Source of the DNA: Clostridiales bacterium
GTDB taxonomy: Bacteria > Bacillota > Clostridia > Christensenellales > Aristaeellaceae
Length of the DNA: 37,321 nt
Assembly: GCA_015056055.1 (NCBI GenBank)
Contig: SVHC01000029.1
Coordinates: 1-37,321, forward strand
Direction: 5' to 3'
Both the position numbers and the translations under genes were made by a program. Position 1 is the stretch's first letter; every line of letters begins with the position of its first letter. The notes beneath the pieces were generated by a model. The model worked only from the letters and a program-made list of their open reading frames with translations, ran no database searches and was not told where the DNA came from. Of this stretch, positions 8,653-37,321 are shown piece by piece.

Positions 8653-8680
8653 CATCCGCATACAAAAAGGATGCCCCACG

Positions 8681-8710
8681 CACGCCGCCGCTGCGGATTT
8701 TGATTTTTAT
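8681..8710 (-). repeat. Possible remnant of the dispersed structured repeat
   Basis: Read on the minus strand, ATCAAAATCCGCAGCGGCGG and the following GTG closely match the 5' end of the repeat copies at 29614 and 37162. Only about 30 bases match, so it is either a truncated copy in the opposite orientation or a chance GC-rich similarity. Confidence 0.4.
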
Positions 8711-18302: not shown

Positions 18303-18339
18303 AAAAAACTCCTTCCGCCAGTCCCGGAAGGAGTTTTTT
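18303..18339 (+). terminator. Intrinsic terminator of the XRE-family gene
   Basis: Stem ACTCCTTCCG / CGGAAGGAGT (18308-18334), extended by A-T pairs and followed by six T. Confidence 0.9.
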
Positions 18340-18342
18340 ATC

Positions 18343-18651
18343 TACGCAAAGCACAGCCGCTATAGCCATTTTTTCAATCCGCAGAATCGGCTTTGCCGGT
18401 TCGAGGAGCATATTTTTTCGTAGGTAAGCCTGCGCACCGAAGAAAAAATTGCTTCCTTGCAGATTTCACGCCCGGAATCTGAAGGATTTCAGTGAAATCT
18501 GGTGAGGGGACGAACGAAGTGCGCGCCCAGTGGGCGAAAACGTGCGGCGAGAGTCCAATGAGCAAGGAAGTACACCAAGTAAAAGCGATGGCGGACGACC
18601 ATTGCGAATTGTGGTCGGCAGTGGCGGGAGAGCTTGCTTTCCCGCCACAAC
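18343..18651 (+). repeat. Dispersed structured repeat, copy 1 (about 309 bp)
   Basis: Non-coding. Shared with the copies at 29614 and 37162. Elements in order: TACGCAAAG entry; ATCCGCAG plus a GC-rich stretch; stem A, a long A/T-rich helix (GGAGCA...TTTTTTCG with CGAAGAAAAAATTGCTTC) capped by GTAGG-TAAG-CCTGC; stem B, a perfect helix CAGATTTCAC/GTGAAATCTG with an inner helix; a middle module GGTGAGGGGACGAACGAAG with hairpin CGCCC-AGT-GGGCG closed by GGAC/GTCC; a helix CGACCA/TGGTCG; and a 3' hairpin GTGGCGGGA/TTTCCCGCCAC. It lies between two convergent genes, right after a terminator. The nature of the element is unknown; it could be a MITE-like element or a structured RNA. Confidence 0.8.
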
Positions 18652-18787
18652 GAAGTTATGTATCCTGCGGCGGCGGTGCTTTCGTAAGGGGATAAACCAT
18701 TCCTGCCGGGGAATGCCGCCGCTATAAAAACCGTCTGCGGTGAGGCGGTAGGACAATTCCGGCGCGGGTGCACCGGTGAGAATGGAT
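18652..18787. other. Intergenic stretch with GC-rich inverted repeats
   Basis: Between repeat copy 1 and the stop of the cysteine-rich gene. It contains a long-range GC-rich inverted repeat (GCGGCGGC with GCCGCCGC) and the weak terminator listed at 18726-18749. No open reading frame is convincing. Confidence 0.5.
18726..18749 (-). terminator. Possible terminator of the cysteine-rich gene
   Basis: Minus strand: a short stem ACCG(C)CT / AG(A)CGGT with one mismatch followed by TTTTTAT, about 40 bases after the stop codon. Weak. Confidence 0.4.
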
Positions 18788-19822
18788 CTACATGTTGGTC
18801 GTCATCGCACTGCCGCAGCGCGGACAGGAGGATGATGCGCCTGCGCAGGTGGTACCGCAGCTGGAGCAGGTTGAACAGGTCGAACTCCGGCAGCCCAGAT
18901 TCGTGATGCAGCCGCTTTGGCAGTTTGTGCAGGAGGACCATGTCGTGCTGCCGTTTGACGCAGTATTCACTGCTGCCGTACCGTTTGCGCATTCACAACC
19001 GCTGATCGTGGTGAACGCTGCCGACTGCTGCGGGAACAGCGGCAGAGAGAAGAATTCATCGCACACATTTTCCGCGAATTCCTCGCAGGGCGGGATTTCG
19101 CAGTAGCCATAGGACGGGATCATCAGCTCCACCTCGGCCAGAATTTTGAGCACGATGGTGACGCAGATGGTGATCTCGAACTGGCAGTTGCCGATGTAAG
19201 TCCCGGATACGCAAATCGCGCTGACAAGGCTTTCCAGAGTAAACGGAACGATGGATTCATCCGGAATCGCCAGAAGCACATCCTTCACAACGGATACCGT
19301 GCCGCGTCCCATCCATTCCTGGCATCGCTGATCGGTGAACAGAATATCAATCGGGATGGATACGGTACCCTTTACGCGCGCGAACTGCGGGCGGTCGCAC
19401 AGGCGGTCAATCGTCAGATTGGAAATGGTGCCGGCAGTGGTCGAGGAGCGGCAGCTTTCAAAGGTCCACTGTCCGCACGGCTGCGGCAGCGGGCAGGTAG
19501 CATTTTCCGCATTTTCGACCGCCTCCTGATACGTAAGCGGTGAAGAACAGCCTCCGCAGCTGCAGTTGCAGGTATTTCCCTGGCATGCGCAATTGCAGGG
19601 GCGCGAGTTGCTCTCAGGGCGGCAGGGCGACGTATTGTTCAGCACGGGAACAATATCCGACACGGTAATCACCACATCGTCCAGCTGCTCCTGCTGCAGG
19701 CAGCTGTCATATACGTTCTTCGTCTGAATACAGATGCGCTGGTTCAGTCCATCAAGCGCATTGGTGCAGATGCAGCCGGGCGAAGACTGTGCATTTGCGT
19801 TTTTGTAGCTATAGAATGACAT
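18788..19822 (-). CDS. Cysteine-rich protein, probably of the spore surface
   Basis: 344 residues from the chosen start, with 35 cysteines (about 10%). The N-terminal part has CICTNALDGLNQRICIQTK and KNVYDSCLQQ; a Cys-dense segment follows (NCACQGNTCNCSCGGC). A cysteine-poor beta-rich core (VKGTVSIPIDILFTD, GRGTVSVVKDVLLAIPDESI, FEITICVTIVLKILAEVELM) comes next, and the C-terminal tail is built of Cys/Ser/Thr repeats (CRSSTCSTCSSCGTTCAG). No signal peptide or membrane segment is seen. This resembles clostridial cysteine-rich coat or exosporium proteins, which cross-link by disulfides; I infer that role and have not proved it. The second ATG is chosen because GGGGG lies 7 bases upstream. Confidence 0.75.
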   Translation of the reverse strand: MSFYSYKNANAQSSPGCICTNALDGLNQRICIQTKNVYDSCLQQEQLDDVVITVSDIVPVLNNTSPCRPESNSRPCNCACQGNTCNCSCGGCSSPLTYQEAVENAENATCPLPQPCGQWTFESCRSSTTAGTISNLTIDRLCDRPQFARVKGTVSIPIDILFTDQRCQEWMGRGTVSVVKDVLLAIPDESIVPFTLESLVSAICVSGTYIGNCQFEITICVTIVLKILAEVELMIPSYGYCEIPPCEEFAENVCDEFFSLPLFPQQSAAFTTISGCECANGTAAVNTASNGSTTWSSCTNCQSGCITNLGCRSSTCSTCSSCGTTCAGASSSCPRCGSAMTTNM

Positions 19823-19909
19823 GTTCATTCCCCCTTGGATGTTTTGCCCCGCGGATTCCGAGCGCCCGAAACCCGCACTGCATCTTATGCCCGGCAGAAA
19901 AAAGGTGAC

Positions 19910-19936
19910 AAAAAACAGGCCCGTGAAACGAGCCTG
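19910..19936 (-). terminator. Intrinsic terminator in the intergenic region
   Basis: Minus strand: CAGGCTC-GTTTCAC-GGGCCTG followed by TTTTTT. The stem needs a G-T pair that works only in RNA of the minus strand, so it acts leftward, about 90 bases before the cysteine-rich gene. Confidence 0.75.
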
Positions 19937-20146
19937 TCAAATCGTTGACAAAGGCGACGATTTGACAGAGCCTGAAAAAGCCTGCAAGGCAAGGAAGCAA
20001 ACTTGCAGTCAAGGGAGCTTACATGGACGTAAGTGACCGCAGCCTGCAAGTCCTGCTGACACAGCAAGAATACCGGCGTATTCCTTCGAATCCGCCGGTC
20101 CGCGCGACGACGCTGCGCGTCCGTCCGCTATTCTTGACACAGCAAG

Positions 20147-20186
20147 AAAAAAATCCTTACGACTCTTTTACTGTTCGTAAGGATTT
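20147..20186 (-). terminator. Intrinsic terminator of trxA
   Basis: A perfect 12-bp stem (AAATCCTTACGA / TCGTAAGGATTT) with seven T on the minus strand, about 75 bases after the trxA stop. T-rich on both sides, so it may work in both directions. Confidence 0.88.
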
Positions 20187-20259
20187 TTGCGTTTGCAGGG
20201 TTTGTCAGAGGTCTGACAGGCTCGTGAAAAGAGCCCGTTTCAAAATTCAAACCTTCTTA

Positions 20260-20586
20260 TCAGAGTACGCCGGCTTCCTTCAGCCAGCCTTCGACCTTTT
20301 CAAGAGGCATATAGCCGAGGGTCTTTGCGACCATTTCGCCGCCCTTGAATACCATAAGGGTGGGGATGCTTGCGACGGAGAACTTCACGGCAAGCTCCAT
20401 CTCTTCATCCACATTGACTTTGCCGACGGTCAATTTGTCCTCATACTTTTCGGCAAGCTCTTCCAGAACGGGCGCGATCATTCTGCACGGACCGCACCAG
20501 GTTGCCCAGAAATCCACAACCACGGGCTTTTCGGAAGCAAGCACCTCGGAAGCAAAATTTTCTTTCGTAACTTTGATTTCAGCCAT
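20260..20586 (-). CDS. trxA: Thioredoxin
   Basis: A 108-residue disulfide reductase of the cytosol with the active site WCGPC in VVVDFWATWCGPCRM, the cis-proline in SIPTLMVFKGG, and the usual length. It starts 2 bases after the stop of the FTR-like gene, and its AGGAGA lies inside that gene's last codons, so the two are co-translated. It probably receives electrons from the FTR-like partner or from a thioredoxin reductase encoded elsewhere. Confidence 0.97.
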   Translation of the reverse strand: MAEIKVTKENFASEVLASEKPVVVDFWATWCGPCRMIAPVLEELAEKYEDKLTVGKVNVDEEMELAVKFSVASIPTLMVFKGGEMVAKTLGYMPLEKVEGWLKEAGVL

Positions 20587-29553: not shown

Positions 29554-29594
29554 AAAAACTGCTTCGCGGGAGATTCCCGCGAAGCAGTTTTTTT
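29554..29594 (+). terminator. Intrinsic terminator of the GH106-type gene
   Basis: A perfect 18-bp stem (AAAAACTGCTTCGCGGGA, loop GAT) ending in seven T. Confidence 0.95.
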
Positions 29595-29613
29595 GTTTGT
29601 CGAAAAAAGCAAA

Positions 29614-29896
29614 TTACGCAAAGAAACAAAATTCAAAATCCGCAGTGGCGGCATGTACGCCACGAGGAACGTATTTTTTCGCAGGTAAGCCTGCGTGCCG
29701 AAGAAAAAATCGTTTCATTGCAGATTTTACGACCGGAATCTGAAAGCTTCCAGTAAAATCTGGTGAGGGGACGAACGAAGCGCGCGCCCTGTGGGCGAAA
29801 CAGCACGGCGTGAGTCCAATAAGCAAAGGAGCACAGCTAGCTTAGCGACGCTGGGCGACTATTGCGCATTGAGGAATGTTTACTTCCCCGCCACAA
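29614..29896 (+). repeat. Dispersed structured repeat, copy 2 (about 283 bp)
   Basis: Same orientation and module order as copy 1: TACGCAAAG entry, ATCCGCAGTGGCGGC, stem A capped by GCAGG-TAAG-CCTGC, stem B (CAGATTTTAC/GTAAAATCTG), the GGTGAGGGGACGAACGAAG module with hairpin CGCCC-TGT-GGGCG and GAGTCCAAT, and a 3' end CCCCGCCACAA. The 3' hairpin is broken compared with copy 1. It begins 19 bases after the GH106 terminator and ends 3 bases before the stop codon of the convergent LUD gene. With copy 1 it accounts for the whole gene-free stretch 29546-29899. Confidence 0.8.
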
Positions 29897-37098: not shown

Positions 37099-37123
37099 AG
37101 CCGCCCACATACTGTGAGCGGCT
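37099..37123. terminator. Hairpin upstream of the sugar-acid operon
   Basis: An 11-bp stem with one mismatch (AGCCGCCCACA / TGTGAGCGGCT, loop TAC). On the minus strand it is followed by GTTTTAC, so it may end a minus-strand gene lying to the right of the window. Confidence 0.5.
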
Positions 37124-37161
37124 TTGATTGTCAAAAAACGCGAATATCGTTTAGGCTAGAA

Positions 37162-37321
37162 AAGAAAAATCCAATCCGCAGCGGCGGCGTGTACGGCGCG
37201 AGGAGCGATTTTTTCGAAGGAGAGCCAGCGAACCGAAGAAAAAATCGCTACATTGCAGATTTCACGCCCGAAATCTTTATGATTTCAGTGAAATCTGGTG
37301 AGGGTGGCAGTGGCGGGGGAG
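37162..37321 (+). repeat. Dispersed structured repeat, copy 3 (runs off the window)
   Basis: Same orientation as copies 1 and 2. It has AATCCGCAGCGGCGGCGTG, stem A (GGAGCG...TTTTTTCG with CGAAGAAAAAATCGCTAC) and stem B (CAGATTTCAC/GTGAAATCTG, perfect inner helix GAAATC/GATTTC). Directly after CTGGTGAGGG it jumps to TGGCAGTGGCGGGGGAG, which in copy 1 belongs to the 3' hairpin; the middle module is missing. No gene is seen from 37064 to the end of the window apart from this copy and the hairpin at 37099. Confidence 0.75.

Follow-up and report, generated by a model that had tools for sequence, protein, structure and literature searches.

The window, the whole stretch of 37,321 nucleotides analysed here, is one complete contig from the draft genome of a Clostridiales bacterium (G000, below the home genome; 80 contigs, 95% complete). 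It contains three copies of a structured intergenic element, all on the + strand. Copy 1 (18376-18648) lies between a helix-turn-helix gene and a gene with no Pfam match, and copy 2 (29637-29894) between a 1032-aa gene, also with no Pfam match, and a LUD-domain gene. Copy 3 (37124-37321) is cut by the contig end. The initial annotation had placed at least three copies here, and all three were found and aligned; the start of the third, given as 37162, is most likely 37124, where its terminal repeat begins. Copies 1 and 2 share 82% identity over 204 nt in the alignment of the window repeats, and a 97-nt block is common to copies 1, 2 and 3 at 88% identity. The G+C content of the copies is 48.5-53.8%, compared with 53.3% for the window.

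Each copy contains a core of three hairpins, H1 to H3. The window copies score 147-160 bits with R1, a covariance model made from 31 cores of the home genome, the three window copies among them. In copy 1 the core (18376..18509, + strand, 147.4 bits; also delimited by the alignment of cores) is followed by a nested B repeat (18509..18614, +), identified by blastn and B repeat comparison, and by the distal hairpin H4 (18620..18648, +). A terminator-type hairpin lies directly 5' of this copy (18308..18334), and no duplicate of it was found on the 3' side in the flank comparison (L001). Hairpins of this type, to which no strand is assigned, were read from the sequence, as were H4 and the terminal repeat of copy 2.

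Copy 2 stands directly 3' of a terminator-type hairpin (29558..29588) that follows the 1032-aa gene. A degenerate 5' terminal repeat (29593..29608, +), the core (29637..29770, +, 156.2 bits) and a nested B repeat of subtype 2 (29770..29874, +; sequence and B repeat comparison) precede the 3' half of H4 (29875..29894, +), where, according to the gene calls, the - strand LUD-domain gene has its stop codon 5 nt beyond the element. Copy 3 is abutted by a terminator-type hairpin (37099..37123), the expected left duplicate by analogy with loci L017-L019; any right-hand duplicate would fall past the contig end. Its 5' terminal inverted repeat (37124..37138, +) is near-identical at the same loci, and is followed by the core (37173..37305, +, 159.7 bits) and the start of H4 (37306..37321, +). 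A repeat search of the window also returned a decayed fragment on the - strand (8680..8702), which consists of the 5' half of H1 only and gives no match with R1.

Family size and module anatomy

The genome-wide family supposed in the initial annotation is borne out by at least 52 matching pieces in the home genome (blastn, copy 1 as query; 40 of the 52 candidates were scored), and copies also occur well outside the window in other genomes of the taxonomic family. Several pieces lie at contig ends, as expected, because a repeat breaks the assembly. The 31 home cores were aligned with MAFFT, and a simple codon-usage gene caller placed no gene inside any of these copies, in agreement with the earlier reading that they lie outside genes. 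The same caller assigned both neighbours for 26 of the 31, with 10 copies between convergent genes, 16 between co-directional genes and none between divergent genes. Several copies within one genome are 96-99% identical.

From 5' to 3' the modules are an outer end, a spacer of about 30 nt, the core of about 134 nt, H4, H5 and CTG. The 5' outer end reads TTG(A/C)TTGTCAAAAAA or CAGNYTGTCAAAAAA. Within the core, the loop of H1 is often GTGTAC or ATGTAC, H2 has an A/U-rich stem and H3 follows CCTTGCAG or a similar sequence. The distal H4 is G/C-rich, and H5 is a 3' palindrome built from two facing terminal repeats. The ends of the element are CAG/TTG...CTG and form an imperfect 15-bp terminal inverted repeat, which was identified in the home genome, the sister species G001, G018 and G021, and not in every other genus. 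The pattern AGNYTGTCAAAAA occurs 19, 47, 29 and 35 times in the home genome, G001, G018 and G021, against 2, 0, 2 and 5 occurrences of the reversed pattern. All 19 occurrences in the home genome fall inside matches to the 3' end of the element; the 5' ends escape the pattern because they read TTG. At L019:1408-1468, the outer side of the left terminator copy bears an inverted copy of the terminal repeat, an arrangement that amounts to a near-perfect palindrome of about 60 nt.

Length classes were measured on the 15 copies that have a hairpin at either side. The hairpin-to-hairpin distance is 227-248 nt in 10 of these, 320-355 nt in four and 458 nt in one. The longer classes (320-458 nt) carry one or two nested B repeats. 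The B repeat, of about 105 nt, is also found alone (L034, L035, L036 and L039) and has many matches in the sister species, and is for these reasons regarded as a second repeat family nested in the element. The common order of blocks described earlier for the three window copies holds, except that GACGAACGAAG and GAGTCCAAT, found in copies 1 and 2 only, belong to the separate B repeat. This repeat often stands after AGG/GGG, ends in ATTGCGAATTGAGG and has two subtypes.

Reduced forms were also seen. At L076 (G000:C14, about 32130) and L089 (C49, about 93770) the core sequence between H1 and H4 is missing, and GCAGCGGCGG adjoins the H4 stem directly. At L098 (G001:C121, about 12930) a lone H5 palindrome without a core directly follows a hairpin; it may be the smallest form that moves, or a remnant left by deletion.

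Terminator hairpins duplicated at the flanks

The 140 nt left of the core were compared with the 140 nt right of H4, with the flanks of other copies as controls. Both flanks were available for 27 home copies, and 52 mismatched pairs served as controls. In 17 of the 27, the true pair scores above every control. A complete stem-loop of the intrinsic-terminator type, different at each locus, is spanned by 14 of these 17 matches, and the two duplicates of a locus are identical or almost identical and unlike those of other loci. The flanking hairpins were considered as parts of the element and rejected as such, because they are locus-specific and matched within each locus. The match covers only one arm at L030, part of the hairpin at L009 and 14 nt between two diverged hairpins at L016. 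The duplicate at L003 takes in the end of H4, and tandem duplication is as likely there as insertion.

The flank match does not rise above the controls in 10 of the 27 copies (L001, L004, L007, L012, L021, L024, L025, L027, L032 and L033). Seven of these 10 have H4 only as their end, and the right-hand gene has its stop codon 3-14 nt away. Older copies should lose their flank duplicates.

Sixty sites in relatives were tested against 118 controls each, a pass being at most one control at or above the true pair. Twenty of the 60 pass, or 18 after discounting L062 and L131, which were left out for matches away from the element ends. The 18 belong to the genera g1 (that of the home genome), g18, g21, g12 and g72, and to the MAG S32M, whose genus is unassigned. 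L078 ties with its best control, and at L129 the palindrome is similar to the terminal repeat. At least one site was counted twice among the 60, as L064 and L137 coincide. No convincing duplicate was found at 42 of the 60.

Twenty duplicates, 15 from the home genome and five from relatives, were trimmed by eye, with L009 and L030 excluded. They are 20-35 nt long, and at least five of the six terminal positions are paired in 19 of the 20; L013 has three. The mean terminal pairing is 5.75 of 6, compared with 3.37 in shuffles for which the same trimming was allowed (n = 20).

The sequences beside the hairpins were compared in 15 copies. The mean number of T residues is 4.07 of 8 after the left hairpin, where the element 5' end begins, and 4.33 of 8 after the right one. 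An arrangement in which insertion splits the terminator, and the transcript of the neighbour must cross the element, found no support, as the left hairpin is followed by a T-rich tract contributed by the 5' end of the element. The mean number of A residues is 2.73 of 8 at the element 3' end, compared with 3.87 of 8 on the native left side, and this less A-rich 3' end may weaken termination in the other direction.

A conserved fold and its distribution

RNAalifold predicts 35 pairs for the 31 home cores, 11 of them with compensatory changes, from a MAFFT alignment that is not fitted to a model but is itself the source of the structure. Searched with R1, 62 relative loci gave 52 matches with E values of 0.01 or less, a few of which are antisense or weak. 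Among 45 distinct rows of relatives, 95.1% of cells pair, changes on both sides are seen at 32 of the 35 pairs and covariation scores 0.466, compared with 0.148 for shuffled and 0.039-0.082 for slid alignments, figures that lean toward R1 because this alignment was fitted to the model and favours its pairs.

If both strands folded alike, equal numbers of G-U and A-C cells would be expected. Read on the + strand, the home copies have 16 G-U cells and one A-C cell (29 distinct rows). The relatives have 34 and 15 in 34 rows without helix 1, 55 and 15 with helix 1, and 68 and 23 over all 45 rows. One-sided binomial values are 0.0001 for the home copies and 0.005 for the relatives, both rough since the rows are related. 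The G-U excess indicates that one strand folds, and on this sequence comparison the + strand is the predicted folding strand, as RNA or ssDNA.

A known RNA family was looked for and rejected. Rfam gives no match at gathering score in the window, consistent with the initial annotation, which recognised no such family. A permissive search of seven loci gives eight matches up to E 1, all of them to microRNA models and below their gathering scores.

The core is present in 64 of 151 genomes and 25 of 50 genera of the taxonomic family (R1, E up to 1e-4), and R1 matches per genome reach at least 22 (22 candidates were scored there). A covarying fold in half of these genera argues against mere debris and for an element under selection. 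Copies in other genera retain the core, with different ends and distal hairpins. The exact H5 pattern was found at 14 loci, in Candidatus Alectryocaccomicrobium excrementavium, Candidatus Faecivicinus avistercoris and one Clostridia MAG.

In the sister species G001, the ortholog of the 1032-aa gene next to copy 2 ends in a single terminator without the element, which is likewise missing from the conserved sequence to the right of copy 1. Neither of the two orthologous stretches gives an R1 match up to E 1, and none was seen by eye. The gene on the other side differs, so both comparisons are one-sided, and a two-sided empty site was not seen in G001. Spread by plasmids or phages was rejected, as blastn against plasmid and phage collections gave no match at E 1e-3 and an exact match to the 3' palindrome was not found in viral contigs.

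Proposed mechanism, rival readings and known systems

The reading preferred here, with a probability of about three in four, is that of a non-autonomous mobile element that targets intrinsic terminators for insertion and makes a second copy of their stem-loop, with an enzyme presumably acting in trans and a fold presumably under selection. Insertion is the best account of locus-specific duplications together with inverted ends, and, since the duplicated unit is a hairpin, the hairpin would be the target. An enzyme supplied in trans would most likely bind the ends CAG/TTG...CTG and would recognise the terminator as a hairpin, not by its sequence. Judging from where the duplicates end, one strand would be cut at each foot of the stem. 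Gap repair would then copy the hairpin, leaving one on each side of the element. As a hairpin is left on both sides, insertion probably does little harm. The core would fold as the + strand, and its selected fold would be that of an RNA read from the neighbouring gene or of ssDNA handled by the enzyme.

The initial annotation had offered two alternatives, a non-autonomous element moved in trans and a conserved small RNA. The element looks like both, being mobile and carrying a conserved fold. The flank duplications and terminal inverted repeats support mobility, though searches did not find the trans-acting enzyme; covariation and the asymmetry between G-U and A-C support a conserved single-strand fold. 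Neither of the outcomes named in that annotation as refuting it was observed, there being no Rfam match at gathering score and copies well beyond the window. Terminator duplication, the nested B repeat, the family-wide spread and the decayed - strand fragment are additions to that annotation.

The home genome has no match to PF13751, PF05598, PF01609, PF00665 or PF01797, an absence that carries little weight because drafts lose repeats and the search covered these five families only. Eighteen transposase loci were taken from relatives (three PF05598, eight DDE_Tnp_1, PF01609, and seven rve, PF00665). With two mismatches or fewer allowed, none has its transposase enclosed by a facing pair of element ends; when a third mismatch is allowed, six of the 18 contain facing pairs, a count uncontrolled for chance. 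Neither the five domain families nor the end searches, in drafts that break at repeats, yielded an autonomous partner or a parent insertion sequence with the same ends.

The element could also be a miniature inverted-repeat transposable element (MITE) whose parent is an ordinary insertion sequence of the DDE type that makes long duplications, for example from the IS1202 long-duplication group or IS1182-like, and for which terminators are simply a preferred sequence. This is less likely than not. IS1182 members make long target duplications of variable length, and the ends of the element are inverted repeats containing TGTCAAAAAA. The IS1202 family consists of autonomous elements of 1.3-2.5 kb with one duplication length listed for each, and its long-duplication subgroup makes target duplications of 16-28 bp with no known target (PMC10132070). 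The element resembles this subgroup in its long duplications and differs from it in that a homologous transposase was not found here, the TnsB-like type (rve) being represented by no PF00665 match in the home genome and by seven relative loci without facing ends at up to two mismatches. Such a parent is also at odds with duplications whose length tracks the hairpin (20-35 nt) and shows no fixed stagger, with the lack of PF00665, PF01609, PF05598 and PF13751 in the home genome and with the 18 relative loci, none enclosed by facing ends at two mismatches or fewer. An IS1182-type parent was rejected on the absence of PF13751 and PF05598 from the home genome and of enclosing ends from the three relative PF05598 loci, at one of which (L103) weak end matches face each other at a distance of 624 nt, with the transposase stretch not between them. 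DDE_Tnp_1 and rve parents were rejected likewise, with none in the home genome and no facing pair at up to two mismatches at the eight and seven relative loci.

A conserved small RNA or 3'-UTR element that does not move, spread by rare segmental duplication and kept by a regulatory job, would account for the strong covariation across genera, the strand asymmetry, the family-wide presence and those copies that seem, by eye and uncounted, to start a few nucleotides after a stop codon (L119, L120, L126 and L127). It is improbable in view of the locus-specific hairpin duplications, the terminal inverted repeats, the several copies of 96-99% identity in one genome and the absence of the element at two orthologous flanks in G001. 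A REP-like element moved as ssDNA by a Y1 (RAYT/IS200-type) transposase, which a hairpin-rich, intergenic element with a fold specific to the + strand might suggest, is very improbable and was rejected, since Y1 is absent from the home genome and nine others of the 17 element-bearing genomes searched (present in seven) and present in one of four element-free ones, 18 of 19 Y1 loci have no adjoining element, the match at L195 is at chance level (E 0.1), and flank duplication does not fit the usual Y1 transposition mechanism.

For the preferred reading, insertion into terminators with copying of the hairpin, hairpin-long duplications of variable length, unlike a short fixed stagger, point to integration chemistry steered by DNA or RNA structure. 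A further and decidedly tentative proposal is a class of structure-targeting elements, in which the enzyme would recognise the extruded terminator hairpin, cut both feet of the stem and duplicate the hairpin, and the + strand fold would serve as the enzyme's handle in a SINE-like manner. The duplication of the CRISPR repeat on spacer uptake offers an analogy for that of the hairpin. If true, the element would be a bacterial analogue of SINEs, and each jump would add a terminator on either side of it. Insertion into terminators with copying would explain tens of copies without gene breakage, and the ends, fold and target provide a handle for hunting the enzyme.

Among known systems, the element is MITE/BOX-like, of a new variety. 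Group IIC introns, which move by means of a ribozyme and a reverse transcriptase, insert after terminator stem-loops, and to our knowledge the hairpin is not duplicated. The element shares their terminator hairpin target and differs in duplicating it. MITEs are described as short, multi-copy and non-coding, with terminal inverted repeats, target duplications and stem-loops (PMC10969869). The element is likewise short (227-458 nt, n = 15), multi-copy (at least 52 pieces) and non-coding (no gene in 31 copies), with terminal inverted repeats and a target-site duplication. It differs in lacking A+T richness, which is typical of MITEs and not essential, in having a 20-35-nt hairpin as its duplication and in having no known parent insertion sequence.

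The BOX, RUP and SPRITE repeats of Streptococcus pneumoniae are small, intergenic and folded, and can insert within each other. BOX has a modular build whose inner module is optional and repeatable, terminal inverted repeats and target duplications are present in BOX and RUP, and SPRITE is enriched 3' of genes (PMC3049150). The order of core, zero to two B repeats and H4, with its three length classes, resembles BOX A-(B)n-C, the likeness being one of design. What sets the element apart from these repeats is a duplicated target that consists of a terminator hairpin and varies in length, together with a fold that shows covariation in many genera. BrickBuilt of Porphyromonas gingivalis is a repeat-containing MITE; 10 of 19 copies are flanked by predicted Rho-independent terminators and/or polyadenylation sites, and duplications, found in three of four copies examined, differ in length and sequence and are not described as a terminator in the available text (PMC4596501). 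The element is terminator-flanked like BrickBuilt, and differs in that the duplicate is the terminator hairpin itself. Terminator-like or terminator-flanked repeats are already known (PMC10969869, PMC4596501, PMC3049150). No description of an element that duplicates terminators was found in a literature search whose scope left out most subscription papers, and, as far as these sources extend, what is new is the duplication of the terminator itself.

Two other intergenic regions of the window are structured. An inverted-repeat-rich region between two - strand genes (19905-20260) has inverted arms at 19913-19952 and 20201-20240 that are 75% complementary. A sequence resembling its CGTCCGCTATTCTTG stretch recurs upstream of the element in L028, and the region may be a third repeat family. 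The stretch 18667-18748 (L168), 3' of the gene at 18788-19828, is 78% conserved in the sister species G001 and carries the inverted repeat GGCGGCGG...CCGCCGCC, possibly the 3' structure of that gene itself.
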